The notes beneath the pieces were generated by a model, which searched no databases, had not been told where the DNA came from, and saw nothing but the letters and a program-made list of their open reading frames with translations. The position numbers were made by a program, and so were the translations under genes. A stretch of 44,410 nt of DNA from an uncultured Clostridia bacterium (GTDB lineage Bacteria > Bacillota > Clostridia > Oscillospirales > Ruminococcaceae), in assembly GCA_947624745.1 (NCBI GenBank), contig CANQLR010000023.1:1-44410 (forward strand), given 5' to 3'. Positions 1-32,480 of the stretch are shown here, piece after piece. Position 1 is the stretch's first letter; each line of letters begins with the position of its first letter.

Positions 1-628
1 GAGAGGGGGATAAGGTATTCGCTGCGCGAATGCTATCTTAAGCCCCCTCCCCTGCCCCTCCCCGGTGGGGAGGGGTGTGCTCTTCGCAGCTTTACTGATT
101 ATCCGGGCAAGCGGCTCTACCGTGCAGGCGAAGCCCCTGCGCAGAGCTTCGCTCCGCGCGGCCGGGAAGCAAGCTTCCCGGCCCACCGGCCACTCCGTGG
201 CCGGTGGGGGCTTCGCCCCCGGCCATGTGCGCAACCGTTTACCATAGATGAAGCTAAGGGCTTTTCTTTGCCTCGCTCATCGCTCGGCAAACGGGGAGAA
301 CCCTTACGAGAACGCAACGCCCAATCGACTTCTGACTCGTACCTTAGTGCCTGTTGCGCAGCGAACCCGCCGGAGCGGCGGCTTCGCCCGGGGCACCCCG
401 TCCTGCGCTTGCTAACGCATGGGTATTTCGCGACTGCGGTCGCGACGAGGGGCGCCGCCCTATGCACGCGGGGTTTTGTCTGCAAGACAACCGAGGCAAT
501 CGTTGCCGCCGAGGGCAGTCGAGCAGGAACAAAACCAGCTTGCATTTGACCCCGCGGCCTTTTGAGGAAAGGCCGGCGAAACCTTTTCGGTTTATCCCCC
601 CAAAAGTCTGCAAAACAAACTTCCCCAC
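1..628. repeat. Intergenic repeat region A (palindromic module mosaic)
   Basis: No credible gene lies here; the open frames only translate palindromic repeats. Modules in order are: a 'taaggtattcgc' module at 10-46, shared with 9476-9508 and, inverted, with 17618-17652; a three-arm cloverleaf at 127-217; a block at 227-291 shared inverted with 32048-32111; a structured module at 313-389 shared with 9571-9647; and a 34-nt segment at 554-587 that is an exact inverted copy of 31874-31907. The region lies on the 3' side of ppdK, beyond its terminator. The left edge is cut by the window. Confidence 0.85.
127..217. repeat. Three-arm cloverleaf repeat, copy 1
   Basis: The terminal inverted repeat is GGCGAAGCCCC (127-137) with GGGGCTTCGCC (207-217). 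It encloses three palindromes: 139-159 (GCGCAGAGC/GCTCCGCGC, centre TTC, one mismatch), 161-182 (GCCGGGAAGC/GCTTCCCGGC, centre AA) and 184-206 (CACCGGCCAC/GTGGCCGGTG, centre TCC). Only one or no base separates neighbouring arms. Arms 1 and 3 recur in copy 11 near 32200. The fold is inferred; the palindromes are read directly. Confidence 0.88.
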
Positions 629-658
629 AAAAAACAGGCGGAGTCTCCTCCGCCCGTT
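629..658 (-). terminator. Rho-independent terminator of ppdK
   Basis: On the minus strand an 11-bp stem (658-648 with 643-633, one G-U pair, 4-nt loop) is followed by a run of six U (634-629). It starts 19 nt past the ppdK stop codon. Confidence 0.85.
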
Positions 659-676
659 CTTTATTTATGCGCCGAA

Positions 677-3310
677 TTATTTCTTATCCTTAATTGCAGC
701 CTGCGCAGCGGCCAGTCTCGCGATCGGTACGCGGAACGGCGAGCAGGACACATAGTCGAGGCCGATCTTGTGGCAGAACTCGATGGAGCTCGGGTCGCCG
801 CCGTGCTCGCCGCAGATACCGCAGTGAAGCTCGGGTCTTACCTTCTTGCCCATGCTCACGGCCATATCCATCAGCTTGCCGACGCCGGTGGTGTCGAGCC
901 TTGCAAACGGGTCGCTCTCATAGATCTTGTTGGCATAGTATGCCGGCAGGAACTTACCTGCGTCGTCGCGGGAGAAGCCGAAGGTCATCTGGGTGAGGTC
1001 GTTCGTGCCGAAGCAGAAGAACTCAGCCTCCTTAGCGATGTCGTCGGCAGTCAGGGCGGCTCTCGGGATCTCGATCATGGTGCCGACCTCGTACTTAAGG
1101 TCGCTGCCGGCAGCCTTGATGACCTCGTCGGCGGTCTTGACAACGACATCCTTGACGAACTTGAGCTCCTTGACCTCGCCTACGAGCGGGATCATTATCT
1201 CGGGAACGATGTTCCAATCGGGATGCGCCTTCTTGACGTTGATGGCGGCCTTGATGACAGCCTTGGTCTGCATGACGGCGATCTCGGGGTAGGTTACGGT
1301 CAGACGGCAGCCGCGGTGGCCCATCATCGGGTTGAACTCGTGAAGGTCGTTGATGACCTGCTTGATATACGCGACCGACTTGCCCTGTGCCTTAGCCAAA
1401 GCCTCGATGTCGGCCTCGTCGGTGGGAACGAATTCGTGAAGCGGCGGATCGAGGAAGCGAATGGTGACGGGATATCCGCCCAAAGCCTCAAACAGACCCT
1501 CGAAGTCGGCCTGCTGCATGGGCTCGATCTTGGCAAGAGCAGCCTCGCGCTCCTCGACGGTCTCGGAGCAGATCATCTCTCTGAAAGCGCCGATTCTTGC
1601 GGGGTCGAAGAACATGTGCTCGGTGCGGCAAAGGCCGATGCCCTGCGCGCCGAAAGCGGCGGCCTGCTTGGCGTCGGCGGGAGTGTCCGCGTTGGTCCTT
1701 ACGCCCAGCTTCTTATACTTGTCGGCCATCTCCATGATCCTTCCGAAGTAGCCGGAATTCGGGTCGGCGGGAACGGTCGGGATAAGCTCGCCGTAGATGT
1801 TGCCGGTAGAGCCGTCGAGCGAAATGGCGTCGCCCTCATGATAGACCTTGCCGGCGAGGGTGAAGCACTTGTTCTCCTCGTCCATCTTGATGTCGCCGCA
1901 GCCGGAAACGCAACAGGTGCCCATGCCTCTCGCAACGACGGCCGCGTGCGAGGTCTGTCCGCCTCTTACGGTGAGGATACCCTGGGAATACTTCATGCCT
2001 TCGATGTCCTCGGGAGAGGTCTCGAGGCGAACGAGAACTACCTTCTCCTTGTTCTTGCCGTGCTTTACGGCGTCCTCGGCGGTGAACACGATGGTGCCGG
2101 CGGCGGCTCCCGGAGAAGCGGCAATGCCCTTGCCTACGGGAACGGCCTTCTTAAGGGCGTCTGCGTCGAAGGTCGGGTGCAGAAGCATGTCGAGCGACTT
2201 GGCGTCGATCTGCATAAGGGCTTCTCTCTCGGTGATCATGCCCTCGTCGATAAGGTCGCATGCGATCTTGATGGCGGCGGCGGCGGTGCGCTTGCCGTTA
2301 CGGGTCTGGAGCATATAGAGCTTTTCGTTCTCGACGGTGAACTCCATATCCTGCATGTCGCGGTAGTGGTTCTCAAGGATCTTGCAGACCTCCTGGAACT
2401 GCTCGTAGACCTTCGGGAATACCTCGGCCATCTTGGCGATGGGCATAGGAGTGCGGACGCCCGCGACGACGTCTTCGCCCTGAGCGTTTGTCAAAAATTC
2501 GCCCATGAGGCCCTTTTCGCCGGTGGCGGGGTTACGGGTGAAGGCAACGCCGGTGCCGCAGTTGTCGCCCATGTTGCCGAACGCCATCATCTGTACGTTG
2601 ACGGCGGTGCCCCAGCTGTAAGGAATGTCGTGGTCCATGCGGTAGATATTGGCTCTCGGGTTGTCCCAGGAGCGGAAAACGGCCTTGATAGCCTCAAACA
2701 GCTGCTCCTTCGGGTCGTCCGGGAAGTCCTTGCCGAGCTGGTTCTTATACTCGGCCTTGAACTGGTCGGCGAGCTTGTGAAGGTCGTCGGCGTTGAGCTC
2801 AACGTCCTGAGTAACGCCCTTTTCTTCCTTCATCTGGTCGATAAGCTTCTCGAAGTACTTCTTGCCGACCTCCATAACGACGTCGGAGAACATCTGGATA
2901 AATCTTCTGTAGCAGTCCCACGCCCAGCGGGGGTTGTTCGACTTCTTCGCGATGACGTTTACGACGTCCTCGTTAAGACCGAGGTTTAAAATGGTGTCCA
3001 TCATGCCGGGCATCGAAGCTCTCGCGCCGGAACGAACCGAAACGAGGAGCGGGTTCTCCTTGTCGCCGAACTTCTTGCCGGTGATATTTTCCATCTTCTC
3101 GATGTAGGTCATTATCTCGGCCATGATCTCGGGGTTGATCTGCCTGCCGTCCTCATAATACTGGGTGCAGGCCTCGGTGGAAATGGTAAAGCCCTGAGGA
3201 ACAGGAAGACCGATGTTGGTCATTTCCGCAAGGTTCGCGCCTTTACCGCCCAAAAGCTCACGCATCTGCGCGTTGCCTTCGGTGAAAAGGTAACAATACT
3301 TTTTGCTCAT
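677..3310 (-). CDS. ppdK: Pyruvate, phosphate dikinase
   Basis: Interconverts pyruvate + ATP + Pi and PEP + AMP + PPi in the cytoplasm, giving a reversible, PPi-linked step between PEP and pyruvate. The 877-aa protein has the usual PPDK length. It carries the N-terminal nucleotide-binding domain (GGKGANLAEM near residue 20), the central phosphohistidine domain (GGQTSHAAVVARGMG with the catalytic His) and the C-terminal PEP/pyruvate TIM barrel ending in ELHCGICGEHGGDP. I chose the ATG at 3310 because GGAGG lies about 10 nt upstream and the protein then begins MSKKYCYLF as in relatives; an in-frame ATG at 3349 lacks such a site. The gene is monocistronic between its own promoter and a strong terminator. 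A separate pyruvate kinase gene (19409-20821) means both PEP/pyruvate routes are encoded here. Confidence 0.97.
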   Translation of the reverse strand: MSKKYCYLFTEGNAQMRELLGGKGANLAEMTNIGLPVPQGFTISTEACTQYYEDGRQINPEIMAEIMTYIEKMENITGKKFGDKENPLLVSVRSGARASMPGMMDTILNLGLNEDVVNVIAKKSNNPRWAWDCYRRFIQMFSDVVMEVGKKYFEKLIDQMKEEKGVTQDVELNADDLHKLADQFKAEYKNQLGKDFPDDPKEQLFEAIKAVFRSWDNPRANIYRMDHDIPYSWGTAVNVQMMAFGNMGDNCGTGVAFTRNPATGEKGLMGEFLTNAQGEDVVAGVRTPMPIAKMAEVFPKVYEQFQEVCKILENHYRDMQDMEFTVENEKLYMLQTRNGKRTAAAAIKIACDLIDEGMITEREALMQIDAKSLDMLLHPTFDADALKKAVPVGKGIAASPGAAAGTIVFTAEDAVKHGKNKEKVVLVRLETSPEDIEGMKYSQGILTVRGGQTSHAAVVARGMGTCCVSGCGDIKMDEENKCFTLAGKVYHEGDAISLDGSTGNIYGELIPTVPADPNSGYFGRIMEMADKYKKLGVRTNADTPADAKQAAAFGAQGIGLCRTEHMFFDPARIGAFREMICSETVEEREAALAKIEPMQQADFEGLFEALGGYPVTIRFLDPPLHEFVPTDEADIEALAKAQGKSVAYIKQVINDLHEFNPMMGHRGCRLTVTYPEIAVMQTKAVIKAAINVKKAHPDWNIVPEIMIPLVGEVKELKFVKDVVVKTADEVIKAAGSDLKYEVGTMIEIPRAALTADDIAKEAEFFCFGTNDLTQMTFGFSRDDAGKFLPAYYANKIYESDPFARLDTTGVGKLMDMAVSMGKKVRPELHCGICGEHGGDPSSIEFCHKIGLDYVSCSPFRVPIARLAAAQAAIKDKK

Positions 3311-3341
3311 TTGGTTTTTTACCTCCATACATTTTTTCCGA

Positions 3342-3355
3342 CTGCCCATGGGCAG
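3342..3355. promoter_or_regulatory. Perfect 14-bp palindrome in the ppdK leader
   Basis: CTGCCCATGGGCAG is identical on both strands. It lies between the predicted transcription start (about 3366) and the ribosome binding site, roughly +11 to +24 of the ppdK transcript. It could be an operator; the palindrome is seen, the role is inferred. Confidence 0.4.
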
Positions 3356-3372
3356 ATTTCGGAGTTATAAAG

Positions 3373-3401
3373 ATTATACCATAAATCAGGATATATTTCC
3401 A
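3373..3401 (-). promoter_or_regulatory. Sigma-A promoter of ppdK
   Basis: On the minus strand: -35 TGGAAA (3401-3396), 17-nt spacer, -10 TATAAT (3378-3373) preceded by TGG, which fits a TGn extended -10. Confidence 0.7.
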
Positions 3402-3482
3402 TACTTTTTCGGCTAAAATTATTGCCAAAAAAGAAAGGCGATTATTGTGCAAATTTATGAAACTTTTAAGCCTCGGCGATAC

Positions 3483-3511
3483 TTGAAAAGAGCCGCAAAA
3501 AGTAGTATAAT
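3483..3511 (+). promoter_or_regulatory. Sigma-A promoter of glmU-pth-mfd
   Basis: -35 TTGAAA (3483-3488), 17-nt spacer, -10 TATAAT (3506-3511), about 66 nt before the glmU start. It diverges from the ppdK promoter. Confidence 0.75.
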
Positions 3512-3577
3512 AACTAAGAATATTCCCTCGGTCGGTCTAAGCCGCCCGGGCAAAATTTACGAAACGGAGAGGATAAA

Positions 3578-4993
3578 ATGTCCCAAAAAAGCATTTCCGC
3601 GGTCATTCTGGCCGGAGGTCAGGGCAAGCGCCTTCATTCCGACAAGCCGAAGACCCTCACAAAAATTCTCGGCAAGCCGATCATCGACTGGATAATCTCC
3701 GCCCTCGACGACGCGGGGATCAAAGACGTCTGCGTCGTCACCGGATATGCTCACGAATATCTTGATGAGCACCTTGCGGGGCGCTGCGAAACGGTCTTTC
3801 AGTCCGAGCGGCTCGGCACCGGCCACGCCGTCATGACCGCTTCGGAGTTCATAAAAAAGCACTCTGACGGCGACGTTTTGATCTATAACGGCGACGCCCC
3901 CTTCGCCGACCGCGAAACTCTCCTCGGCTCACTCGACCATCACCGCAAAAACGGCTGCGGCGTAACTGTCATTTCCGCCGAGGTCGACGACCCGCAGGGC
4001 TACGGGCGGATCATCCGCAGCGGCGACGGCATCTCCGCCATCCGCGAGCAAAAGGACTGCTCCGAGGAGGAAAAAGCTGTCCGCGAGATAAACTCCGGCT
4101 GCTTCTGGTTCAGCGCAGCCGAGCTTTTGAACACGCTGCCGAAGCTCACCCGCAACAATTCCCAGAACGAATACTACATCACCGACTGCGTCGAGATATT
4201 GCTTGCTTCCGGCCTTCGCGCCGACGCGTATATCGCGAAGGATCGGGACATCGTCCTTTCCGCGAACGACCGAAAGGGAATGCTTGATTTGAACAACATC
4301 GCCCGAAAAAGGGTCATCTTGGGGCTTTTGGAGAGCGGGGTCGAGATCACCTGCACCGACGGCCTGATCATCTCCCCCGACGTAAAAATCGCCCCCGGCG
4401 CCGAGATAAAGCCCGGATGCGAGCTTTCCGGCCGCACCGTGATCGGCAAAAACTGCGTCATCGGCCCCAACTGCCGGCTCAACGACACCGAGGTCGGCGA
4501 GGGATCAGTCTTAAATTCCGTCGTCGCGAACGGCGCGAAGCTCGGCAAGGGCTGCACGGTCGGCCCGTTCGTGCAGCTCCGCCCCGGCACGGTCCTCGGG
4601 GATCTTGTCCATGTCGGCGATTTCGTCGAGATCAAAAATTCCGAGATAGGCGCGGGCTCCGCGGTCGCCCACTTCAACTACGTCGGCGATTCCGATGTCG
4701 GCACAAACGTCAACTTCGGCTGCGGCGCGGTCACGGCAAACTACGACGGCACCAACAAATCCCGCTGCACCGTCGGAAACAACGCCTTCATCGGCTGCAA
4801 CACAAACCTCGTCGCCCCGGTGAAGATCGGCGAAGCGGCCTACACCGCCGCCGGCTCGACCGTCACCCGCGACGTTCCGGACGGCGCCCTCGTCATCGAG
4901 CGAGCCGACCAAAAAATCCGCGAAGGCTACTCCGAAAAGAAGCTCGCCCGCCACCTTGAAAAGGGCAAAAAATTTCAGGATACCGAAAAATAA
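3578..4993 (+). CDS. glmU: Bifunctional GlcNAc-1-P uridyltransferase / GlcN-1-P acetyltransferase
   Basis: Makes UDP-N-acetylglucosamine, the precursor of peptidoglycan and teichoic acids. The 471-aa length fits GlmU. The N-terminal nucleotidyltransferase domain starts with the LAGGQGKRL loop and has YNGDAPF and GYGRI. From about residue 250 the protein is a left-handed beta helix of hexapeptide repeats with RPGTVLGD, AHFNYVGD (putative catalytic His), NFGCGAVTANYDG and the late AAGSTVTRDV. The first gene of a glmU-pth-mfd cluster; many Firmicutes have prs between glmU and pth, which is absent here. The start has a GGAGAGG-type site just upstream and its own promoter. Confidence 0.96.
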   Translation: MSQKSISAVILAGGQGKRLHSDKPKTLTKILGKPIIDWIISALDDAGIKDVCVVTGYAHEYLDEHLAGRCETVFQSERLGTGHAVMTASEFIKKHSDGDVLIYNGDAPFADRETLLGSLDHHRKNGCGVTVISAEVDDPQGYGRIIRSGDGISAIREQKDCSEEEKAVREINSGCFWFSAAELLNTLPKLTRNNSQNEYYITDCVEILLASGLRADAYIAKDRDIVLSANDRKGMLDLNNIARKRVILGLLESGVEITCTDGLIISPDVKIAPGAEIKPGCELSGRTVIGKNCVIGPNCRLNDTEVGEGSVLNSVVANGAKLGKGCTVGPFVQLRPGTVLGDLVHVGDFVEIKNSEIGAGSAVAHFNYVGDSDVGTNVNFGCGAVTANYDGTNKSRCTVGNNAFIGCNTNLVAPVKIGEAAYTAAGSTVTRDVPDGALVIERADQKIREGYSEKKLARHLEKGKKFQDTEK

Positions 4994-5043
4994 ACGACGG
5001 CACTCCCCTGCCCACTGCTCGGGAGCGCTCTTGGGAGAAACAA

Positions 5044-5643
5044 ATGGGACTTTTTTCTAAATTCAAGACCTCGGCCTCGATAGACTGGCTCATCGTCGGC
5101 CTCGGGAACCCCGGGCCGAAATACGCCCGCACCCGCCACAACTGCGGCTGGCTGAGCATAGACAACCTCTCCGCAAAGTTAGGGGTCAGCCTCACCCGCA
5201 TAAAATTCAAGTCGATGTGCGCCCAGTGCGAAATTTCCGGCAAAAAATGCCTTTTAATGAAGCCCACCACGATGATGAACCTCTCCGGCGAGGCGGTGGT
5301 CGAGGCGATGAACTTCTACAAGGTGCCGATCGAGCGGGTCCTCGTCATCTGCGACGACATCAACCTTGACGTCGGAAGAATGCGTATCCGGCGAAAGGGC
5401 TCGGACGGCGGCCAGAAGGGGCTCCGCTCCATCGTGACCCTCACCGGCTCCGAGGATTTCCCGCGGATAAAAATAGGGGTCGGCTCGAAGCCCACCCCCG
5501 ACTATGACCTTGCGGCGTGGGTGACCTCGGAGTTTTCCGACAGCGAGAAAAAAACGGTTTTCGAGGCTTTCGCCCGCGCCTCCGAGGCGGTAAAGCTCAT
5601 CGTCGCGGGCGATTTAGACAAGGCCATGAACCTTTACAACTGA
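5044..5643 (+). CDS. pth: Peptidyl-tRNA hydrolase
   Basis: Releases peptides from prematurely dissociated peptidyl-tRNA so the tRNA can be recycled. The protein has 199 aa with the Pth signatures: IVGLGNPGPKYARTRHNCG including the catalytic His of RHNxG, KPTTMMNLSGEAV, and DDINLDVGRMRIRRKGSDGG. About 15 residues precede the usual start of the fold (WLIVGLGNPG), a modest N-terminal extension. GGGAGAAACAA precedes the ATG. It lies 50 nt after glmU and 7 nt before mfd, consistent with one transcript. Confidence 0.95.
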   Translation: MGLFSKFKTSASIDWLIVGLGNPGPKYARTRHNCGWLSIDNLSAKLGVSLTRIKFKSMCAQCEISGKKCLLMKPTTMMNLSGEAVVEAMNFYKVPIERVLVICDDINLDVGRMRIRRKGSDGGQKGLRSIVTLTGSEDFPRIKIGVGSKPTPDYDLAAWVTSEFSDSEKKTVFEAFARASEAVKLIVAGDLDKAMNLYN

Positions 5644-5650
5644 GGTGAAA

Positions 5651-9103: not shown

Positions 9104-9130
9104 ACGCTGAAAAAGAGGACAGAAAACAGA

Positions 9131-9261: not shown

Positions 9262-9304
9262 GGCGAAGCCCCAACGCCCACGGAGTGGGCGTTGTCCGCC
9301 GCGA
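9262..9304 (-). repeat. Single-arm palindromic module S1
   Basis: On the minus strand: CGCGGCGGACA, then the arm AACGCCCAC/GTGGGCGTT, then GGGGCTTCGCC. The same order occurs at 11583-11624, 12073-12115 and 17818-17860 with different arm sequences. Confidence 0.75.
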
Positions 9305-9687
9305 GTAAAGATTTGTGGTATCATTTTAAAAGGCACTTAATTCGGGGTTTTGCGAAACTTAAAAATTTGTTACGCGGCGGGTAGCGCGTCTTCGACGCGC
9401 TAAGGGCTTCGCCTCCCACTCACTGCGTTTTACCAAATTTCGTTATAGCCCTGCATGAGTTGCCATAAGGTATTCGCTCGCAGGCGAGCGAATGCTATTT
9501 GAAGCCCCACCCCCTCCAAGGTTTGAGCGGACTTGCTGCTATGTGAAATCCCCCTCCTGATTGGGAGGAGCGCAACGCCTTATCGACTGCTGAATCGTAC
9601 CTTTGTGCCCGTTGCGCAGCGAACCCGCCGTAGCAGCGGGTTCGCCCATACCTCTGCCTCCCCGCACCAAAGTGCAGACTCCGCGTA

Positions 9688-9774
9688 GCGAAGCCCCTGT
9701 GAGCCTTCGGCTCACCTCCCCGGACCGCTCCGCGCTCCGGGGGCCGTCCACTTCGTGGCCGGCAGGTGCTTCGC
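9688..9774. repeat. Three-arm cloverleaf repeat, copy 2 (degenerate)
   Basis: Outer pair GCGAAGCCCC (9688-9697) with GGTGCTTCGCC ending near 9775, imperfect. Arms: GTGAGCC/GGCTCAC (9699-9715, perfect), a CCCCGGA-type arm at 9718-9742 with one mismatch, and GCCGTCCAC/GTGGCCGGC around 9744-9764 with one mismatch. It keeps the three-arm layout but has decayed. Confidence 0.65.
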
Positions 9775-9809: not shown

Positions 9810-9903
9810 GGGGCGAATCCCCCGTGCGGACATGAAGTCCGCACGCCCGCCGCACTTCGTGCGCCGGGCCGCGTTCGCTCCGCGAACGCGGGGGCTTCGC
9901 CCC
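9810..9903. repeat. Three-arm cloverleaf repeat, copy 3
   Basis: Outer pair GGGGCGAATCCCCC (9810-9823) and GGGGGCTTCGCCCC (9890-9903), one mismatch. Arms: GTGCGGAC/GTCCGCAC (9824-9844), a GCCCG..CGCAC/GTGCG..CGGGC arm around 9845-9869 with one C-C mismatch, and CGCGTTCGC/GCGAACGCG (9870-9890). Confidence 0.78.
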
Positions 9904-9942
9904 CTCCCATGCCTCACCGCACCAACCCGCAGACCCCGCGCG

Positions 9943-10033
9943 GCGAAGCCCGGGCGGCAATGAAATTGCCGCCATGCCGGACGTGCAAGCACGTCCGGCG
10001 GGTGCGCGCTCCGCGCGCACCCCCGGGCTTCGC
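9943..10033. repeat. Three-arm cloverleaf repeat, copy 4
   Basis: Outer pair GCGAAGCCCGGG (9943-9954) and CCCGGGCTTCGC (10022-10033), perfect. Arms: GGCGGCAAT/ATTGCCGCC (9953-9973, centre GAA), GCCGGACGTGC/GCACGTCCGGC (9976-9999, centre AA) and GGTGCGCGC/GCGCGCACC (10001-10021, centre TCC). All three arms are perfect palindromes. Confidence 0.88.
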
Positions 10034-10090: not shown

Positions 10091-10891
10091 CTACTCCCCC
10101 GCTCCCCTCTCTACCCCGATCTCCTCAAGCACCCTCGCCATCTCCTCGTCGAGCCGGTCGATGGCCTCCTGCTGCCCGTCGACCCGCGATTTCAGCTCCT
10201 TTACGCTGTCGCTGATGCTCTGCGCGCCGTAGGCCACGCTGCAAACGACAACCATGATGAGAGCGGTCATGACGATCATCGCGCGTCCGACATTCTCATC
10301 GCAAAAAAGCAGCTTTTCGTCGGTAAATCGCCTGTTTCCGGGGACCGACTGCCACGCCTTGAGTATCAGCGGGAGAAGCAGCGACAGGATAATTATGTCA
10401 ATAGGCAGCTGAATTATGTTCTTGATCGCCCTCGCGGGGAACATCGCCAAAAAGCCCTTTCCGGCCAAAGACGCCACCGCCCAGGTGGTCAGCCAGAGGT
10501 TGCAAATGGCGACTACAGCGGTCTTTGCGGCGATTATTCTCGGCACAAACCATTTATCATGTTTAGCATTATAGAGGAACACCCCGTAGATGAGCGCACC
10601 GAGCCCTTCGATCAGCGTGAACCGAATGTCGAACGCCCCCGACGGCTTCAGAATGAACCCCAAAAGGTCGGTTATGACCCCCGCCGCAAACCCCACCGAA
10701 GGCCCGTAAAGCATTGATATTGCGGACAATGCGACGAATGCGAAGGAGATGTGGAGGGTGTCGGAGGTGTGGACGTCAATTGTTAACTTGATTACGATGT
10801 CGAGGGCGATCAGCATCGCGACAGTTACCAGACATCTCATGTTTTTCAATTCTTTGGCTGAACGTTTAAAGAGTGCAAAAAAACCTTTCAT
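10091..10891 (-). CDS. folT: Folate-type ECF transporter S component (FolT-like)
   Basis: Integral membrane substrate-binding subunit of an energy-coupling-factor transporter; folate is inferred from family likeness and from the THF riboswitch in its leader. The 266-aa protein has about six hydrophobic segments and the FolT-like stretches LHISFAFVALSAISMLYGP and AGVITDLLGF, with FTLIEGLGALIYGVFLY further on. It is longer than typical S components because a charged coiled-coil-like tail (roughly the last 45 residues, ISDSVKELKSRVDGQQ onward) follows the last membrane segment. I chose the ATG at 10891 behind AAGGAGAA; an in-frame ATG at 10921 is upstream of that site. The shared EcfA/A'/T module is not in this window. 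Confidence 0.85.
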   Translation of the reverse strand: MKGFFALFKRSAKELKNMRCLVTVAMLIALDIVIKLTIDVHTSDTLHISFAFVALSAISMLYGPSVGFAAGVITDLLGFILKPSGAFDIRFTLIEGLGALIYGVFLYNAKHDKWFVPRIIAAKTAVVAICNLWLTTWAVASLAGKGFLAMFPARAIKNIIQLPIDIIILSLLLPLILKAWQSVPGNRRFTDEKLLFCDENVGRAMIVMTALIMVVVCSVAYGAQSISDSVKELKSRVDGQQEAIDRLDEEMARVLEEIGVERGAGE

Positions 10892-10962
10892 CGGCGGTTC
10901 TCCTTTCTTGATCCTGCTCAAGTTGCGGAAAAATGCCGGTAAAAGGCGGTTTTTTTAGTGCA

Positions 10963-11087
10963 AATCAAGCGGGATGCGGGCGTCAAACCGCTTAAGCAAA
11001 TTATATAGTATTTAACCTGCTTATATTCGTCCCGGCGGCAACTCCCCGTCCGCCGGACACTGAACGCTTGACGCTCTACTCTTAATT
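10963..11087 (-). promoter_or_regulatory. Tetrahydrofolate (THF) riboswitch
   Basis: Reading the minus strand, P1 AATTAAG/CTTGATT closes the domain (11087-11081 with 10969-10963, one G-U). It is followed by the diagnostic AGTAGA, P2 GCGTCAA/TTGACGC, a P3 hairpin built on CCGGCGG/CCGCCGG with a GGGGAGTT loop, a CGAA joint, and a 3' segment GCGGT...GCATCCCGC. This order matches the THF class known upstream of folT genes. It ends 72 nt before the folT start. I could not identify the expression platform with confidence. Confidence 0.85.
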
Positions 11088-11274: not shown

Positions 11275-11365
11275 GCGAAGCCCCGGGCGTTCGCGAAGCG
11301 AACGCCATGCCAAACCTGCTTGCGGGTTTGGCAAGGGCGCGCTTCGCGCGCCCGCGGGGCTTCGC
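11275..11365. repeat. Three-arm cloverleaf repeat, copy 5
   Basis: Outer pair GCGAAGCCCC (11275-11284) and GGGGCTTCGC (11356-11365). Arms: GGCGTTCGC/GCGAACGCC (11286-11306, centre GAA), GCCAAACCTGC/GCGGGTTTGGC (11309-11332, centre TT, one wobble) and GGGCGCGC/GCGCGCCC (11335-11353, centre TTC). First of three cloverleaves in a tandem array. Confidence 0.88.
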
Positions 11366-11582
11366 CCCCCGCTGTCCCGCAGCACTTACCTGCTTCAGAG
11401 CGCCAAAGTCAGGTTCTGCTCCAACAGGCCGTAGCGTTGTGCCAGAATTGCATAGAAACGGGTGGGAAGGCGCGAAGCCCTAATCGCGCCCGGAGGGCGT
11501 GATTCACGCCGCGATGCAGATTCTGGAATATTGCAAAATGCTTTGATTACTGCATTTTCGCTAAATTGAGCAATTCCCCTGG

Positions 11583-11624
11583 CGCGGCGGACAACGCCCG
11601 GGAACGGGCGTTGGGGCTTCGCAC
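11583..11624 (+). repeat. Single-arm palindromic module S2
   Basis: CGCGGCGGACA, arm AACGCCCG/CGGGCGTT, then GGGGCTTCGCACC. Nearly identical to 12073-12115 and related to 9262-9304 and 17818-17860. Confidence 0.75.
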
Positions 11625-11649: not shown

Positions 11650-11740
11650 GCGAAGCCCCGGGCGTTCGCTCCGCGAACGCCTTGCCAAACCCGCAAGCGG
11701 GTTTGGCGCGGGCGCGCTTTGCGCGCCCACGGGGCTTCGC
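11650..11740. repeat. Three-arm cloverleaf repeat, copy 6
   Basis: Outer pair GCGAAGCCCC (11650-11659) and GGGGCTTCGC (11731-11740). Arms: GGCGTTCGC/GCGAACGCC (11661-11681, centre TCC), GCCAAACCCGC/GCGGGTTTGGC (11684-11707, centre AA) and GGGCGCGC/GCGCGCCC (11710-11728, centre TTT). The arms match copy 5, but the centres of arms 1 and 2 are in the opposite orientation. Confidence 0.88.
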
Positions 11741-11846
11741 CCCCGCTGTCATGCGCTTTTCTGCTTCATCGCGCCAAAGTCAGATTCTGCTCCTGCAAGC
11801 CAAGGCGCTGCGCTATGATTGCAGAGGGGCTGATGTGAGAGAAAAC

Positions 11847-11967
11847 GGGGTCCCCGCAAAGTCGTCAGACTTTGTGGGGCGAGGAGGAGCGACGGAGTGA
11901 ATGAGCGGCGGCATATTTCAGCTTTTACAATGCCGCTGCGAACGATACGCAGTCCGCGACGACGAAG
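11847..11967 (+). repeat. R2 element, copy 1 (about 117 bp)
   Basis: Close match to 15724-15844. It starts with a 12-bp hairpin (11852-11863 with 11868-11879), continues through 'gaggaggagcgacggagtga', an ATGCCG-type stem around 11908-11937 and 'cgatacg.agtccgcgacgac'. It sits inside the tandem array and accounts for the longer second period. Confidence 0.8.
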
Positions 11968-12072
11968 CCCTAATCGCGCCCGGAGGGCGTGATTCACGCC
12001 GCGCTACGGATTCTGGAATATTGCAAAATGCTTTGATTACTGCATTTTAGCTAAATCGAGCAATTCCCCTGC

Positions 12073-12115
12073 CGCGGCGGACAACGCCCGTGAACGGGCG
12101 TTGGGGCTTCGCACC
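12073..12115 (+). repeat. Single-arm palindromic module S3
   Basis: CGCGGCGGACA, arm AACGCCCG/CGGGCGTT, then GGGGCTTCGCACC; the counterpart of 11583-11624, one period later. Confidence 0.75.
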
Positions 12116-12140: not shown

Positions 12141-12232
12141 GCGAAGCCCCGAGGCGGCAGCTTCACTGCCGCCACGCCAAACCCGCTTGCGGGTTTGGCG
12201 TGGGCGCGCTCCGCGCGCCCGCGGGGCTTCGC
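12141..12232. repeat. Three-arm cloverleaf repeat, copy 7
   Basis: Outer pair GCGAAGCCCC (12141-12150) and GGGGCTTCGC (12223-12232). Arms: GGCGGCAG/CTGCCGCC (12153-12173), GCCAAACCCGC/GCGGGTTTGGC (12176-12199, centre TT) and GGGCGCGC/GCGCGCCC (12202-12220, centre TCC). Arms 2 and 3 match copies 5 and 6, but arm 1 is replaced by the arm found in copies 9 and 10. Confidence 0.88.
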
Positions 12233-15485: not shown

Positions 15486-15577
15486 GCGAAGCACGGGCGC
15501 CTGCGGAGCAGGCGCAGAGCCTTTCCCGCTTGCGGGAAAGGCGGTCGGGCGCGTAACGCGCCCGACCCGGGCTTCGC
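15486..15577. repeat. Three-arm cloverleaf repeat, copy 8
   Basis: Outer pair GGCGAAGCACGGG and CCCGGGCTTCGCC, one mismatch. Arms: GCGCCTGC/GCAGGCGC (15497-15515, centre GGA), GCCTTTCCCGC/GCGGGAAAGGC (15519-15542, centre TT) and GGTCGGGCGCG/CGCGCCCGACC (15543-15567, centre TAA). All arms are perfect and none matches another copy's sequence. Confidence 0.86.
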
Positions 15578-15605: not shown

Positions 15606-15697
15606 GCGAAGCCCCGAGGCGGCAGCTTCGCTGCCGCCGTAAAGGCCGCGCTTCGCGCGGCCTTTGGCGCCCACTTCGTGGGCGCCCGGGGCTTCGC
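15606..15697. repeat. Three-arm cloverleaf repeat, copy 9
   Basis: Outer pair GCGAAGCCCC (15606-15615) and GGGGCTTCGC (15688-15697). Arms: GGCGGCAGC/GCTGCCGCC (centre TTC), AAAGGCCGCGC/GCGCGGCCTTT (centre TTC) and GGCGCCCAC/GTGGGCGCC (centre TTC). All are perfect palindromes. Confidence 0.88.
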
Positions 15698-15723
15698 CCC
15701 ACCCTCCCCCGCCCCAGCAAAAA

Positions 15724-15844
15724 GGGGTCCCCGCAAGGTCGTTAGACCTTGTGGGGAGAGGAGGAGCGACGGAGTGAATGAGCGACGGCATATTTCAGCT
15801 TTTAAAATGCCGCCGCGAACGATACGTAGTCCGCGACGACGACG
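15724..15844 (+). repeat. R2 element, copy 2
   Basis: Close match to 11847-11967. The 12-bp hairpin (15729-15740 with 15745-15756) carries a G-C pair (15737/15748) where copy 1 has A-T (11860/11871), a compensatory change. Confidence 0.8.
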
Positions 15845-17414: not shown

Positions 17415-17817
17415 TTTCCTCCGCCTTTCGGGTCTTTAATTCTATTATACACCCGATGTCAAGGGGGAGGGGGATGGGGTGGAGGGTGATTGGGGAGGCG
17501 AGCGCACACACTTTACCTTGATAAAGCCGCAAAAGTTGGGCGGGAAAAGTGAACGCCCCCTTCCATCGGGAGGGGGCTGCTGCATAGGTGTGATACATCA
17601 CGTGGGACGGAGGGAATGGGGCTTAAAATAACATGAGCGAAGCGAATACCTTTTTGCAGCTTATGCAGGGTCAATAGCGAAATTAAGGAATACGCAGGGA
17701 GCAGGGGCGAAGCCCTAATCGCGCACGGAGTGCGCGATTCCCGCATCGCGACGGTTTATTAAAGTGCAATAAGAGTCATTATTTGCGCTATTTTATAGGT
17801 CAGAACAAACCCATACT

Positions 17818-17860
17818 CGCGGCGGACAATATTCGCTCCGCAAATGTTGGGGTTTCGCCC
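17818..17860 (+). repeat. Single-arm palindromic module S4 (diverged)
   Basis: CGCGGCGGACAAT, arm ATTCGC/GCAAAT (imperfect), then GTTGGGGTTTCGCCCC. The flanks match S1-S3 while the arm sequence is different. Confidence 0.65.
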
Positions 17861-17969: not shown

Positions 17970-18060
17970 GCGAAGCCCCGGGCGTTCGCTCCGCGAACGC
18001 CGCCCGCGCACTTCGTGCGCGGGTACGGCGGCAGCTCCGCTGCCGCCCCGGGCCTTCACC
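17970..18060. repeat. Three-arm cloverleaf repeat, copy 10
   Basis: The left end is GCGAAGCCCC (17970-17979); the right end CGGGCCTTCACC is degenerate. Arms: GGCGTTCGC/GCGAACGCC (centre TCC), CCCGCGCAC/GTGCGCGGG (centre TTC) and GGCGGCAGC/GCTGCCGCC (centre TCC). Arm 1 is shared with copies 5 and 6; arm 3 is the arm that sits first in copies 7 and 9. Confidence 0.82.
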
Positions 18061-22321: not shown

Positions 22322-22325
22322 CAAA

Positions 22326-23504: not shown

Positions 23505-23519
23505 AAAAGGAGCAAAAAA

Positions 23520-24038: not shown

Positions 24039-24045
24039 TGAGCAT

Positions 24046-25167: not shown

Positions 25168-25189
25168 GCTTTAAGAAAGGACAGTATCT

Positions 25190-26077: not shown

Positions 26078-26149
26078 CGGTCTGAACGAATAATTTTCCC
26101 GTAATTTGGCAATTCTTACTTCCAAGGACAATGAAAGGAAAGCTGCGAT

Positions 26150-27784: not shown

Positions 27785-28740
27785 AAAAGCTCCCGATAAT
27801 TTTAGCGGCGGTGATGTTGCTTTCGTCCTGCGGCGCGGCTCCCCTGCCGCCTGTTGATTATTCTGAAACGGGGACGGCGCAGGCGGAGGTAACCTCTCCC
27901 GAAAGCACCGACGAAGCCCCCGCAAGCAGCGCCGACGGGACTGCGCCCGAAATCACCGAGCCCGACAACCCCGAGGGGCTGACCCCGATATACGACCTTT
28001 CCGCGATAAACGCGGCATACGCCTCGGGGGACAGAAGCGGGCTCTCGAAGAAGGACAGCGATATTCTTGAAGCCGCCGAAAGGGCGGTTTCGGAATTTTA
28101 CCGGGAGGGAATGAGCGAGCGCGAGACGGTCTTTGCCGCCCACGACTGGCTGGTCGAAAACGTCACCTACGACGAAAAAATGCTTCTTGCGATACCGAAG
28201 CAGACCCCCGACTCGGAAAACCCCTACGGCGCGCTCTGCCTCGGACAGGCCATCTGCATGGGCTATACGACCTCGTTTCAGCTGTTTATGGACATGCTCG
28301 GGATCAAGTGCTCGATAGTTCGCGGCGAGGGCTTCGGCGAAGACGTCTGGGAGGAGCACGCCTGGAACCTCGTCGAGGTCGGCGGGAATTATTACCACGT
28401 CGACGTAACCTGGGACGATTTCGTTCCCGACGAGGCGGGGCGGATACCCTTTCACATCTATACCATGGTCGACGATACTGCCATGGAGGAGCTTCACAGC
28501 TGGGATCACGAAAAATACCCCGCAGCGACAGTCTTTGACCCGAGCTATTACACCGAAAACGGCTTTTACGCCGAGACTGCGGAGGAGGTCAGAGAGATAC
28601 AGCGCCGGGCGTCCGAAAGCGGCCTGAAATGGTGCGAGGTAATGACCCCGGGCGATCTGACCGCGTTTTCCTCCTGCGTTGAATACTACTGGCCGTCGTC
28701 GGTGGGAGATTATTCCGTCACCGTCTACTGGCTCCGTTAA
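27781..28740 (+). CDS. Transglutaminase-like domain lipoprotein
   Basis: 319 aa with a lipoprotein signal (lipobox LSSC, Cys17), a Thr/Pro/Glu-rich linker and a transglutaminase-like fold with the expected Cys-His-Asp order: Cys159 in GQAICMGYT, His193 in EEHAWNLV and Asp208 in VDVTWDD. Such proteins in Clostridia are extracellular with uncertain substrates; protease, crosslinking or binding roles are possible. The start codon overlaps the previous stop (ATGA), indicating translational coupling with the SpoIID-like gene. Confidence 0.85.
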   Translation: MKKLPIILAAVMLLSSCGAAPLPPVDYSETGTAQAEVTSPESTDEAPASSADGTAPEITEPDNPEGLTPIYDLSAINAAYASGDRSGLSKKDSDILEAAERAVSEFYREGMSERETVFAAHDWLVENVTYDEKMLLAIPKQTPDSENPYGALCLGQAICMGYTTSFQLFMDMLGIKCSIVRGEGFGEDVWEEHAWNLVEVGGNYYHVDVTWDDFVPDEAGRIPFHIYTMVDDTAMEELHSWDHEKYPAATVFDPSYYTENGFYAETAEEVREIQRRASESGLKWCEVMTPGDLTAFSSCVEYYWPSSVGDYSVTVYWLR

Positions 28741-28752
28741 AGGGGTGATCAA

Positions 28753-29472
28753 ATGCTCTGCGTTGTTACGGGCGGCTCGCGTGGGATAGGCCGCGCGGTC
28801 TCCGTAAAAATGGCAAAATGCGGCTATACCGTGCTTTTTTGCTACAAAAATAACTCCCCCGAGGCCGAAAAAACGCTCTCTCTCATATCCGAAGCGGGAG
28901 GCAGGGCGGAGGCGCTTCGTTCCGACGTCAGCCGCGAGGAGGACGTGATCAGGCTCTTTGAGGAGGCGGACAGGCTCGGCGGGCTGAAGACACTTGTCAA
29001 CTGCGCCGGGATAAGCAAGATCGGGCTTTTACAGGACATGAGCGGCGAGGAGATACGCTCGCTTATAGATACGGACCTCACCGGGACGGTATATTGCTGC
29101 CGCGAGGCCGCAAAGAGGCTCGTCAGGACCGGCGGCGCGATAGTAAATTTTTCGTCGGTCTGGGGAGAGGCGGGTGCGTCCTGCGAGGCGCTTTATTCCG
29201 CCTGCAAGGCGGGGGTCATCGGCCTCACGAAGGCGCTCGCCAAGGAGCTCGGCCCTGCGGGGGTGCGGGTGAACTGCGTTTCCCCGGGGCTCATCGACAC
29301 CGACATGAACCGAGAGCTTGACAAAGAAGCTATTGATGGGTTCATCTCGGACACTCCCCTTTTACGGATAGGCACGCCGGAGGACGTCGCGGAAGCGGTC
29401 GCCTTTTTGGCGGAGGAAAAAAGCTCGTTCATCACCGGGCAGGTGCTCGGCGTGAACGGCGGATACATCTGA
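28753..29472 (+). CDS. Short-chain dehydrogenase/reductase (FabG-like)
   Basis: 239-aa NAD(P)H-dependent oxidoreductase with the classical SDR layout: TGGSRGIG cofactor loop, NCAGIS (NNAG position), FSSVWGEAG with the catalytic Ser, YSACKAG with the Tyr-xxx-Lys pair, and SPGLIDTDM. It resembles 3-oxoacyl-ACP reductases, and acpS lies two genes on, but no fatty-acid synthesis genes are adjacent, so the substrate is open. Confidence 0.85.
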   Translation: MLCVVTGGSRGIGRAVSVKMAKCGYTVLFCYKNNSPEAEKTLSLISEAGGRAEALRSDVSREEDVIRLFEEADRLGGLKTLVNCAGISKIGLLQDMSGEEIRSLIDTDLTGTVYCCREAAKRLVRTGGAIVNFSSVWGEAGASCEALYSACKAGVIGLTKALAKELGPAGVRVNCVSPGLIDTDMNRELDKEAIDGFISDTPLLRIGTPEDVAEAVAFLAEEKSSFITGQVLGVNGGYI

Positions 29473-29484
29473 AAGGAAATTGAC

Positions 29485-29976
29485 ATGGAAGGCATAAGAG
29501 AACAGCTTGTTTCCCGCCCCCGCCTGCCCGAGGACGGCATTAAAAAGGTGATAATCATGGCCGCCGGGGTCACCCTCGGGGTGCTCGTGCTGCTGCTTCT
29601 GAACGCGTTCGGCGGGGCCTTGGGGACGATGTTCGGGGTTCTCATCGCGATAGGCATTATCTGGGGCGCGTGGTATCTTATGGGAAATCTTAACGTCGAG
29701 TACGAATACATCATCGCCGACGGGGAGATGACGGTCGACAAGATAACCAACAAGCGCTCGCGGAAAACCCTCTGCAGCCTTAAGCTGCGCTCCGCCGAGG
29801 CGTTCAGGCTCGGGGAGATACGCGACGACAACGCCTCGGTGATCGACGTCTGCGGCGACGGCGACAGGTACAGCATTTTATATAACGACGATAAATTCGG
29901 CCGCGCGGTGCTTCTTTTCACCCCCGACGGGCGCACTCTTGAGGCCGTGAAGCCCTATCTTCCGAGGCTGTCATGA
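29485..29976 (+). CDS. Small membrane protein of unknown function (possibly DUF6106)
   Basis: 163 aa. A short N-terminal segment is followed by two adjacent hydrophobic segments (about 20-42 and 46-68) and a soluble C-terminal domain (YEYIIADGEMTVDKI onward) resembling small clostridial proteins I associate with DUF6106, from memory only. The end overlaps acpS by four bases, so it is co-translated with it. Confidence 0.75.
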   Translation: MEGIREQLVSRPRLPEDGIKKVIIMAAGVTLGVLVLLLLNAFGGALGTMFGVLIAIGIIWGAWYLMGNLNVEYEYIIADGEMTVDKITNKRSRKTLCSLKLRSAEAFRLGEIRDDNASVIDVCGDGDRYSILYNDDKFGRAVLLFTPDGRTLEAVKPYLPRLS

Positions 29977-30320
29977 GGGTCGGGATAGATTCGGTCGAGA
30001 TTTCGCGGGTCGAAAAAAGCATTCGGTCTCCCTCATTTTTGGAAAAGGTTTACTCCAAGAAGGAGCGTGAGCAGCTGAACGGCCGCCGGGCAGAGTCCTA
30101 CGCCGGGAATTTTGCCGCCAAGGAGGCTTTTTCCAAGGCGCTCGGCACGGGTATCCGCGGGATAAAGCTGAGCGACATCTCGGTTTTGAGAGACGGTCTC
30201 GGCGCTCCGTATTTGGAGCTTTCCGGCACGGCGAAGGAGGCTGCAAAGGGGCTTAGCTTTACAGTCAGCATCACGCACACGCGGGAGCTGGCAACGGCGG
30301 TGGTGATAGCGTATGAGTAG
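29973..30320 (+). CDS. acpS: Holo-[acyl-carrier-protein] synthase
   Basis: Transfers 4'-phosphopantetheine from CoA to acyl carrier protein. The 115-aa length fits the AcpS trimer family. Motifs: GIDSVEISRVE with the metal-binding Asp, FAAKEAFSKALGTGIRGI with the conserved Glu and Lys, and SITHTRELATAVVIAY near the C-terminus. It overlaps both neighbours; acpS next to nnrD is a common arrangement. Confidence 0.94.
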   Translation: MRVGIDSVEISRVEKSIRSPSFLEKVYSKKEREQLNGRRAESYAGNFAAKEAFSKALGTGIRGIKLSDISVLRDGLGAPYLELSGTAKEAAKGLSFTVSITHTRELATAVVIAYE

Positions 30321-31287
30321 ATTCATTTCCGAAGAAAACTTCATAAATGCCGAAAAACTGGCCTTTTCCGAGGATATTCCGATGAAAAAGGCCCTTTTGC
30401 GTTACGCGGAAAAAGAGGGCGAGATCGAGATAGTAGACCCGTGTAAAGCCGTAAAGCTTGTCGGGCATAGGCGGATAAACTCGCACAAGGGCGACTTCGG
30501 AAGGCTGCTTCTCATCGTCGGCTCGGACAGATTTCCGGGCGCGGCGGCCATCTGCGCCCACGCGGCGCTAAGAACCGGCGCCGGGATAGTCACCATCATG
30601 AGTACCGAGCGCGCGGCCTATTCCCTCGCGGCGCATCTTCCCGAGGCGACCCTTTGTCCCCTGCCCGCAGACGGCGACGGGTTCATGCTCCCCCGAAAAA
30701 CCGACGAAATTGCGGCGCAGATACGGTCGGCGAGCGCCATAGTAATGGGCTGCGGGGTCGGAGTGTCGGACGGGATCGCCGAAATGTTGGAAATTTTACT
30801 TTCCGAGGCAAACTGCCCCGTAATTTTGGACGCCGACGGAATAAACACCGCCGCGCGGCGCATAGAATGTCTTAGAAAAGCCAAGGCGCTCGTCCTGACT
30901 CCCCACGTCGGGGAGCTCGCACGCCTCGCCCAAAAAGACATCTCCGCCGTAAATGCAAACCGCTTTACATACGCCCGCAGGGTCCGCGTGGCTACGGGGG
31001 CGGCGGTGTGCGCAAAGTCCTCGTCTACGCTTGTTTTGGGGGATCGCGCGCGGGTCGTCGCCGCCGGAAACACCGGCCTTTCGCGAGGCGGAAGCGGAGA
31101 TATGCTCGCCGGGGTGATCGGCTCGCTCGCCGCCCAAGGTGTAAAGCCGGAAGACGCAGCGGTCATCGGCCCTGCGATAACGGGGCTCGCGTGCGAGATG
31201 ATCACGAAAAAAGCGTCCGAAAGGGGCGTTTTGGCGAGCGACGTAATTTCGGCGCTGCCGAGGCTTTTCAAGAAATTTGGAGTGTGA
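30313..31287 (+). CDS. nnrD: ADP-dependent NAD(P)H-hydrate dehydratase
   Basis: Repairs hydrated NAD(P)H. The 324-aa protein carries the YjeF C-terminal ribokinase-like domain: INSHKGDFGRLLLIVGSDRF, RTGAGIVTI, MGCGVG, LDADGINT, LTPHVGEL and the catalytic GNTGLSRGGSGDMLAG. The N-terminal NnrE epimerase domain of the bifunctional form is absent; about 45 leader residues (SEENFINAEKLAFSEDIP onward) precede the kinase fold and I do not recognise them. It overlaps acpS by eight bases. Confidence 0.93.
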   Translation: MSRFISEENFINAEKLAFSEDIPMKKALLRYAEKEGEIEIVDPCKAVKLVGHRRINSHKGDFGRLLLIVGSDRFPGAAAICAHAALRTGAGIVTIMSTERAAYSLAAHLPEATLCPLPADGDGFMLPRKTDEIAAQIRSASAIVMGCGVGVSDGIAEMLEILLSEANCPVILDADGINTAARRIECLRKAKALVLTPHVGELARLAQKDISAVNANRFTYARRVRVATGAAVCAKSSSTLVLGDRARVVAAGNTGLSRGGSGDMLAGVIGSLAAQGVKPEDAAVIGPAITGLACEMITKKASERGVLASDVISALPRLFKKFGV

Positions 31288-31292
31288 TCTTC

Positions 31293-31796
31293 TTGAAAAA
31301 AATTTTAGCGCTTTTGCTCGCTGTCGTGATGCTGAGCGGCTGCGCGCCCACACCCACCTCGACCGTTGAGCTGCCGAAAAGCTTCATCGCGGAGACGGAT
31401 ATCACCGTCTCGGAGACGACCTACAAGGTCGGGCTGACACGCTACGGCGACGGCTGCTGGCACGCCGAGGTTCTGGAGCCGCTCGCGGTGCGCGGGCTGA
31501 CGTTCGACTACGACGGCGGCAGCGTAACCCCCGGCTACAAGGGGCTGAGCTTTACGTTCGACAAGAGCAGATTTCCCGCCGGCGCGGTCGTTTCGACGGT
31601 TGTTGACTCGCTCGACCGGCTAATCCCCTACCCTGTCGACGTGATCGTCGGCGACGAGGGGCTTCTTGCTTCTGGCGAGGTCGGGGGCGAGAGCTTTGCG
31701 ATGAGCCTCACCAAGGCGGGCATCCCCGAGCGGATAGAGATCGGGGAGATGAAGGTAGAGTTTAGCACATTAAATATTTTGGAGGAGGAGCAGTAA
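31293..31796 (+). CDS. Putative lipoprotein of unknown function
   Basis: 167 aa with a clear lipoprotein signal (KKILALLLAVVMLSGC, Cys16). The mature part is predicted beta-rich, with no family I recognise. I chose the TTG at 31293 because GGAG lies 10 nt upstream; a GTG at 31284 overlaps the nnrD stop (GTGA) and is the alternative, adding three residues. Last gene of the run before a strong terminator. Confidence 0.75.
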   Translation: MKKILALLLAVVMLSGCAPTPTSTVELPKSFIAETDITVSETTYKVGLTRYGDGCWHAEVLEPLAVRGLTFDYDGGSVTPGYKGLSFTFDKSRFPAGAVVSTVVDSLDRLIPYPVDVIVGDEGLLASGEVGGESFAMSLTKAGIPERIEIGEMKVEFSTLNILEEEQ

Positions 31797-31800
31797 CCGA

Positions 31801-31825
31801 CGCAGGCACGGCCTGCGCCTTTTTT
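31801..31825 (+). terminator. Terminator of the 21191-31796 gene run
   Basis: Perfect 7-bp stem CGCAGGC/GCCTGCG, loop ACG, then CC and a run of six T, directly after the lipoprotein stop. Confidence 0.92.
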
Positions 31826-32480
31826 GTGGGGGATTTTCCGGACTTTTACCCGGCTAAAGCGGAGACAATGCTAAAAAGGTTTCGCCGGCCTTTCCTCAAA
31901 AGGCCGCAGGATTCCAAAGGGCAGAGCCCTTTGGTCGCCCGTCGCAACGGGCGAAATTCCCCTTTTCAAAATATCGCAGGAGGGTAGGCCAAACAGTCCG
32001 GTGGACTGTTTGGCCGTAGGGGACCCTCGACGGGGGTCCCCTCCTTATTTGCCGAGCGACGAGCGAGGCAAAGGAAAGGCGGGACTACATCAGCAGTAAA
32101 CGGTTGCGCACAGAGCCGTGGGAGCGATGAGCGGGCAAGCTCTGCTCAATGGTGGGATAGCTGAAAATCGGAGGGCACGCTGGCGGGGGCGAAGCCCCCA
32201 CCGGCCACGGAGTGGCCGGTGGGCCGTGGACCGCAGGTCCGCGGCCGCGCGGAGCGAAGCTCCGCGCAGGGGCTTCGCCACGCAAGGCCTGCGCCTTGCT
32301 GCGGTAAGGCAGCGAGTACAGGGGAGCAGCCCAAGGCCCGCGTAGCACGGAAGGGGGCTCGGGGAAACCGCGCAGCGGTGTCCCCCCCTAATTTGCCGAG
32401 CGAAGCGAGGCAAACAAAAAAGCCTTATCTAAGCAGCAAAAAACCTGTCGCGCTGACAGGAAGAAGTTACATCAGGCGCA
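31826..32480. repeat. Intergenic repeat region D (composite hairpin chain)
   Basis: No gene supported. The order is: 31874-31907 (exact inverted copy of 554-587), a chain of hairpins including CCAAAGGGC/GCCCTTTGG near 31914, CGCCCGT/ACGGGCG near 31936 and a perfect 13-bp stem at about 31987-32015, a TTTGCC...GGCAAA hairpin at 32048, the segment to 32111 shared with 227-291, a three-arm cloverleaf at 32189-32278 and another TTTGCC...GGCAAA hairpin at about 32392-32414. The block has the same order as region A, inverted. Confidence 0.82.
32189..32278. repeat. Three-arm cloverleaf repeat, copy 11
   Basis: Outer pair GCGAAGCCCC (32189-32198) and GGGGCTTCGC (32269-32278). Arms: CCACCGGCCAC/GTGGCCGGTGG (centre GGA), GCCGTGGACC/GGTCCGCGGC (centre GCA, one wobble) and GCGCGGAGC/GCTCCGCGC (centre GAA). 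Arms 1 and 3 are those of copy 1, at the other end of the window; the middle arm differs. Confidence 0.86.

Follow-up and report, generated by a model that had tools for sequence, protein, structure and literature searches.

The integron site attC is a single imperfect hairpin that is tied to gene cassettes and to the IntI integrase, the copies of MITEs are alike inside and are usually flanked by target duplications, and the double-hairpin or hairpin-forming elements of mitochondria are dispersed hairpins with fewer arms than the elements described here. REPs are described as repeats of 20-40 bp, most of which contain a GTAG or CGTC motif (PMC3733652), and REPINs have been described as well (PMC3116915). 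The repeats considered here, termed cloverleafs, share with REP/BIME sequences and with RAYT-associated REPINs a short palindromic intergenic character, a high copy number and an occurrence in clusters; they differ in that they are 90 or 150 nt long with three arms in one closing stem, their arms are not conserved, and no intact Y1 transposase was found in G000, the 2.57-Mb genome of the gut bacterium that carries the DNA analysed. Within 8 nt outside the cloverleaf ends, the REP motif GTAG occurs at 3 of 148 ends and CGTC at 0 of 148. Like attC sites the cloverleafs have short conserved ends and a variable palindromic interior, but they are three-armed. Like MITEs, among them the enterobacterial RU/ERIC and the bcr-type elements, they are non-coding and dispersed and have terminal inverted repeats; unlike MITEs, their interiors differ wholesale, and direct repeats or target site duplications around 74 elements (k = 2-9; offsets 0, 2 and 4) are not above shuffled flanks beyond noise. 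The mitochondrial elements are alike in being dispersed hairpins and unlike in their organelle host and lower arm number. Features that were tested set the family apart from REP, MITE and terminators, each of which fails on some of them. No three-arm or cloverleaf palindromic repeats of such design were found in a limited literature search, most subscription journals lying outside it, and there is a real chance that these non-coding intergenic palindromic repeats are a kind of their own.

Cloverleafs in the window, the genome and its relatives

The window, i.e. the whole 44,410-nt stretch of DNA that was analysed, contains eleven short cloverleafs (S elements). Seven are on the plus strand, at 128-216, 9688-9774, 9813-9900, 9943-10033, 11650-11740, 15606-15697 and 17970-18059, and three on the minus strand, at 11275-11365, 15486-15577 and 32189-32278, the strand being the one with TYC loop tips; these are placed both by their fold and by a sequence-blind detector that looks for three adjacent hairpins within an inverted pair. 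The element at 12141-12232, outside the detector set, is placed by its three-arm fold and is given no strand. Leader scoring adds a leader flank to the elements at 9688 (9643-9687, plus), 9943 (9898-9942, plus) and 32189 (32279-32323, minus), and the element at 9813-9900 is oriented from its tips alone. All eleven lie where the initial annotation had placed them, and each folds as an outer stem with three arms, the closing stem at 17970 being weak; the detector recovers ten of the eleven, and the one missed, 12141-12232, still folds three-armed. The lengths first assigned were nine copies of 90-92 nt plus one of 87 and one of 94; measured by their ends the copies are, in order, 89, 87, 88, 91, 91, 91, 92, 92, 92, 90 and 90 nt, a range of 87-92 nt, and the copy called 9810 runs from 9813 to 9900 by its ends and from 9810 to 9903 with a longer stem. 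The proposed conserved terminal inverted repeat holds for most copies and breaks down at 9813, where the left end has decayed to GCGAATCCCC, at 15486 (GCGAAGCACG) and at the decayed right end of 17970 (GGCCTTCAC). The intergenic location also stands, a simple gene caller finding gene overlap in 0 of 86 short and 0 of 35 long end-pairs. What the initial annotation missed is a one-sided leader and four longer elements with the same ends (L elements), at 9263-9412 (plus), recognized by S-type ends, two palindromic outer arms and a middle arm with a ~70-nt loop, and at 11472-11622, 11962-12112 and 17707-17858 (all minus), placed by their end-pairs and a long-class model.

The family is genome-wide and extends well beyond the eleven copies in the window. 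Its ends form a conserved inverted pair, GCGAAGCCC / GGGCTTCGC, that closes three abutting hairpins, and the exact pattern GCGAAGCCCC-N50-80-GGGGCTTCGC has 97 matches in G000 compared to 0 for the reversed pattern. The sequence-blind detector finds 74 cloverleafs in 433,792 bases (the window and 20 further G000 stretches), a density that is biased because the stretches outside the window were picked around exact matches; in a single realisation of an order-3 Markov control for this sequence it finds 0. Both ends are within two mismatches of GCGAAGCCC in 73 of the 74, and the last one retains 6 of 9 letters at one end. When end-pairs are chosen blind to structure (60-110 nt apart, at most one mismatch per end), 80 of 86 display three hairpin loops and 6 display two by RNA energies; unpaired ends also occur in the 434 kb searched. 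The leader, ~42 nt on one flank, orients 35 of the 74 elements, and a leader-level score is reached by ~1-2% of 4,020 random intergenic 60-mers. Rfam covariance models at the gathering score have a THF riboswitch as their sole match in the window (10965-11085, minus strand, upstream of an ECF transporter S-component gene at 10091-10921) and are silent on the cloverleafs. The genome count, the Rfam result and the covariation described below support the claim of a new three-arm family with interchangeable palindromic arms, for which the limited literature search likewise gave no named match.

The S elements at 128-216 of the window, G000:C2:121-212, G000:C2:149430-149519 and G000:C49:154-243 lie less than ~250 nt from contig ends, which suggests that the assembly breaks in the repeats and that the copy number is underestimated. 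A third dispersed repeat (GGGGTCCCCGCAAAGTCG..GACTTTGTGGGG) is present at 11842-11965 and 15719-15842 of the window and at L036:5731-5920 and L041:10694-11063; it seems to be located inside the arm tip of an S element (L036) and inside the loop of an L element (L041), as though it had inserted preferentially into hairpin tips. A strict pattern for this repeat matches only 11849-11879 of the window.

The distribution is that of one group of genomes. A covariance model of the S class, which was trained on G000 arms and for which the best 150 candidates per genome were taken, has matches in 8 of 16 genomes of the genus, at least 150 in G000 and 5-28 in each of the other seven. All eight are 66-100% identical in one conserved protein, the single protein by which the element-carrying subclade is defined; the other eight, at ~45% identity in the same protein, have 0 matches, as do all 9 genomes scored from other genera. 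Exact-pattern matches occur in G016, G017, G018 and G020 of the same genus and S-model matches in G022, and under stricter filters, with the best 21 candidates taken, 4 of 197 genomes of the bacterial family have matches, one of them outside the genus. The arms of relatives are mostly different, but some are shared, among them those of one matching site (set A, below) and, in G010, the GGCCGCGGACC arm. In a rumen genome the same ends enclose AT-rich arms.

The exact end pattern is found in many phyla, at no fewer than 77 sites in at least 73 loci. Of the 35 sites designated 'Lapin' (32) or RUG14213 (3), the strict detector accepts 26, and by our own reading the minimum-energy fold of every one of the 35 shows three hairpin loops. 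A spread of cloverleafs across phyla was rejected, as 0 of the 42 other sites listed pass the strict detector and the same ends there enclose something else; two viral contigs also matched, neither of them containing a cloverleaf. In Bacteroidota (Dysgonamonadaceae, Tannerella and Prevotellaceae; loci L056, L058, L066, L068, L099, L100 and L112) the exact ends GCGAAGCCCC/GGGGCTTCGC delimit elements of 76-81 nt with AT-rich interiors, which are not cloverleafs and look like a separate MITE-like family.

Loop tips and strand polarity

Loops of 3 nt close 178 of the 222 arms in G000, and these triloops follow a tip rule, C(GNA)G: 153 of the 178 are GNA or its complement TNC, and 167 have a C..G closing pair. 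The rule is obeyed by 63 of 83 triloops of relatives (39 elements with mostly other arms), a set that was hand-picked from Clostridia loci and five stretches and in which at least 2 of the 39 elements share G000 arms. GNA loops on G-C stems are described as giving DNA mini-hairpins of exceptional stability, with a melting temperature of 78 C for GCGAAGC (PMC4686876; GNA mini-hairpin papers are cited in PMC6479982), and the conserved end GCGAAGC of the cloverleafs is that very mini-hairpin; GCGGAGC ends, also GNA, are present in some elements of G003 and G004.

The tips are polar. With the leader placed on the left, 81 of 105 arms have TYC-type tips (C(GRA)G on the complementary strand), 10 have GRA-type tips and 14 are unscorable. 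Within elements the tip polarity is consistent in 56 of 73 and mixed in 17, and the tip majority matches the leader in 30 of 32. Loop flipping as a rule, i.e. TTC/GAA and TCC/GGA as random inversions, was therefore discarded; given the polarity seen after leader orientation, loop flips are only occasional, and one was found between species. The GNA strand has no more than a slight advantage in folding energy (40 of 70), and orientation relative to the direction of replication stands at 11 of 25.

Arm change in long elements and at matching sites

The L class has the same ends spaced 147-153 nt apart, yielding three-armed elements of ~150 nt, and its middle arm consists of a short stem with a ~70-nt non-palindromic loop that can be aligned between copies. 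The L-class covariance model has 114 matches in G000 at E <=0.001, a number that includes a weak tail and a few loci counted on both strands; by our own count 99 separate loci, 130-201 nt long, are left at E <1e-11. Of 24 other genomes, five have one or two matches each, and these span 73-135 nt and are therefore not long elements. Among the 34 long end-pairs with an S element in the same stretch, the nearest one is 105-120 nt away in seven and 26-36 nt away in another seven. A 491-base query containing one composite matches G000 58 times, in several cases over almost its full length, and a search of plasmid and phage records with one composite element found nothing. A module (AAGGTATTCGCT..GCTCATGCTATTTTAAGCCCC) adjoins long elements (L029:15078-15180); G004 has 54 matches to the composite query, all within this module among the matches listed, and is without a match to the L model.

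The L loop serves as a clock for change in the arms around it. The long-class alignment retains 29 of the 35 end-pairs; one near-copy and five that were divergent or misparsed had been dropped by hand. Within it, 23 pairs have a loop identity of at least 0.8. Between these loop-similar pairs arm 1 shows 36 two-sided and 6 one-sided changes in 161 stem positions and arm 3 shows 37 and 11 in 207, i.e. 73 two-sided versus 17 one-sided changes for the outer arms combined; the corresponding values are 3 and 15 of 161 for the middle stem and 0 and 10 of 207 for the closing stem and ends. In arm 1, 0-1 pairs are different in 14 comparisons and 3-5 pairs in 9.

Covariation, which had been suggested as a check on the family, exceeds both controls in the short class: 0.503 compared to 0.123 in shuffles (reached in 0 of 500) and at most 0.139 in slid versions. 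In the long class it is 0.296 versus 0.134 shuffled, and the number of pair types, 24 versus 27.4, is below that of every shuffle, as is expected if few arm types are shared, which counts against free point-by-point covariation. In the arms of the short-class alignment 189 cells are double transversions, against 55 that are double transitions and 22 with a G.T wobble, the counts being of cells and not of events. This alignment holds 45 of 54 S elements of 88-92 nt, and the hand omission of the other nine (decayed ends, near-copies) biases it toward pairing; the transversion excess is accordingly not independent evidence, since the aligned arms may be non-homologous and 9 of 54 were removed by hand.

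The arms come from a limited stock. In 70 oriented S elements there are 27, 23 and 19 distinct 6-bp cores at arm positions 1, 2 and 3, and of 12 cores that occur at several positions 10 are confined to 1 and 3. Positions 1-2 have 8 allele pairs with a four-gamete set and positions 2-3 have 11, whereas positions 1-3 have 0 of 351. Of 92 S pairs with one arm different, 26 differ at a single core position, and the S and L classes have 4 identical 15-mer arm cores in common (of 120 and 35). The initial view of the arms as widely different yet self-complementary therefore holds for the pairing, which is kept, and not for a free sequence, the repertoire being limited and subject to the tip rule; 'hypervariable' arms are better described as drawn from a pool.

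The flanks of 100 G000 elements within the stretches were compared with those of 115 elements from other loci, and in four sets the sequences on either side of the element are homologous. In set A (G000, G018 and Lapin-012 bin74; flanks of G000 and bin74 identical at 185 of 200 positions) all arms are in common; between G000 and bin74 arm 1 has the same stem with loop TTC in one and GAA in the other, an exact loop inversion, and arm 3 has the tips TCA, CTTTA and TTC. In set B, formed by G017 and G010, arm 1 differs by a C-G pair turned into T-A on both sides, arm 3 has one pair changed on both sides and a changed tip, and the middle arm is internally rewritten, pairing being kept throughout the arms. 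In set C (G003 and G005) arm 1 has a single pair changed on both sides, the middle arm is shortened, and arm 3 has a transversion that is likewise two-sided. The changes in sets B and C are in part single transition-type pairs, such as ordinary compensation via G.T gives too. In set D the flanks of G020 and G004 are identical at 361 of 466 aligned positions (250 nt per side), but none of the three arms is the same, and one element could have been replaced by another. No empty sites were seen among the matching-site comparisons, and some elements, being at matching sites across species, are old there.

Two candidate site pairs, F and G, failed as matching sites, as did the site upstream of an arsR-like gene (window 32189), whose flanks align too poorly; an element is also present upstream of this gene in G004 and one further upstream in G003, and five of eight loci have none. 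The element at L039:7952-8038 has a further cluster of three hairpins beside it, at L039:8046-8200, one end of which is decayed, and it is the cluster, not the element, that aligns with the set B elements of G017 and G010.

Possible origins of the arms

On balance we lean toward the view that the cloverleafs are DNA cruciform repeats, non-coding and strand-polar, in which template switching by fold-back rewrites the arms and copies trade arms with one another, both the template-switch mechanism and the exchange being proposals for this family. Counting against this view are the lack of four-gamete sets at positions 1-3, the S pairs that differ at a single core position, the low number of pair types in the long class, the elements of mixed tip polarity, the slight energy advantage of the GNA strand and the other readings given above for sets B, C and D. 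Template switching is described as able to make or repair a hairpin in one event, with multi-base compensatory change and possible loop inversion (PMC8794818). Arms would extrude while the DNA is single-stranded in replication or repair, and at the highly stable C(GNA)G tips the nascent strand could turn back and serve as its own template, making or repairing perfect arms and sometimes inverting a loop in the same event. Whole arms would in addition pass between copies, the two outer slots drawing on one pool and the middle slot mostly on its own, while selection or a binding protein may retain just the ends, the three arms and the tips. Fold-back at a very stable tip would account for the conserved tips and closing pairs and for the near-perfect arms, and exchange between copies for the shared arm pool. 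It is conceivable, if less than likely, that what is heritable in such an element is its fold (the closing stem, three hairpins and GNA tips kept across species, in some cases at the same site), the individual hairpins being replaceable through rewriting, inversion or whole exchange, and that an enzyme may read it as folded single-stranded DNA.

A rather unlikely account takes the cloverleafs for non-autonomous mobile elements of attC- or REPIN-like kind, recognized in trans by an enzyme as folded single-stranded DNA, with only the fold, ends and tips being read and the arm sequence left free. Short conserved ends around a free palindromic interior, the polarity common to tips and leader, the many copies in G000 and few in relatives and the absent target duplication all fit this account, and attC sites are described as recognized by structure, not sequence (PMC2727003). 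However, no transposase or nuclease that tracks the family, as had been sought, was found among the three enzyme families tested, Y1, IS110 and reverse transcriptase. Mobilisation by IS200/RAYT was rejected: the sole Y1 locus found in G000 (L118) is a broken IS200-like relic of overlapping Y1_Tnp pieces with in-frame stops, Y1 was not found in the element-bearing G003, G005, G007 and G010, and six Y1 loci have no cloverleafs beside them, only scattered heptamers; IS110 and reverse transcriptase domains were not found in G000 and do not track the family. The lack of empty sites and the age of some elements also speak against mobility, which by itself leaves the two-sided arm change unexplained and is made less probable by it.

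A role at the RNA level, as bidirectional terminators, mRNA stabilisers or structured RNAs selected for RNA pairing, would agree with very stable RNA folds, intergenic placement and covariation, but we consider it improbable: stem mismatches are 13 G.T and 13 A.C, so that there is no strand asymmetry and no wobble excess on either strand, orientation relative to genes is even (18/18/16/14), 18 of 73 elements lie between divergent genes, T-runs (at least 6 T in 10) follow 0 of 148 ends, and the tips obey a DNA rule. The wobble symmetry, the lack of gene-orientation bias and the lack of T-runs point to a structure formed by DNA more than to an RNA or a terminator. Little credence is likewise given to neutral debris, i.e. 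palindromes made perfect by mutation bias alone with neither function nor dedicated spread. No function was found, and template switching alone is described as able to restore palindromes (PMC8794818), but genomes that are 66-72% identical in one protein retain the three arms and the shared ends (or GCGGAGCCC), and mutation bias fixes neither the ends, nor the number of arms, nor their dispersal.

How long perfect palindromes originate and are kept up is an open question for which the family is a natural test case, since some hundred three-armed copies, a loop clock and matching sites across species make whole-palindrome change measurable, not merely inferred. The tip rule links a natural genome to the exceptional stability of GNA mini-hairpins as DNA. 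If it is true that an enzyme reads the fold, the cloverleafs would be a further shape-recognized DNA system besides attC and IS200-like ends.
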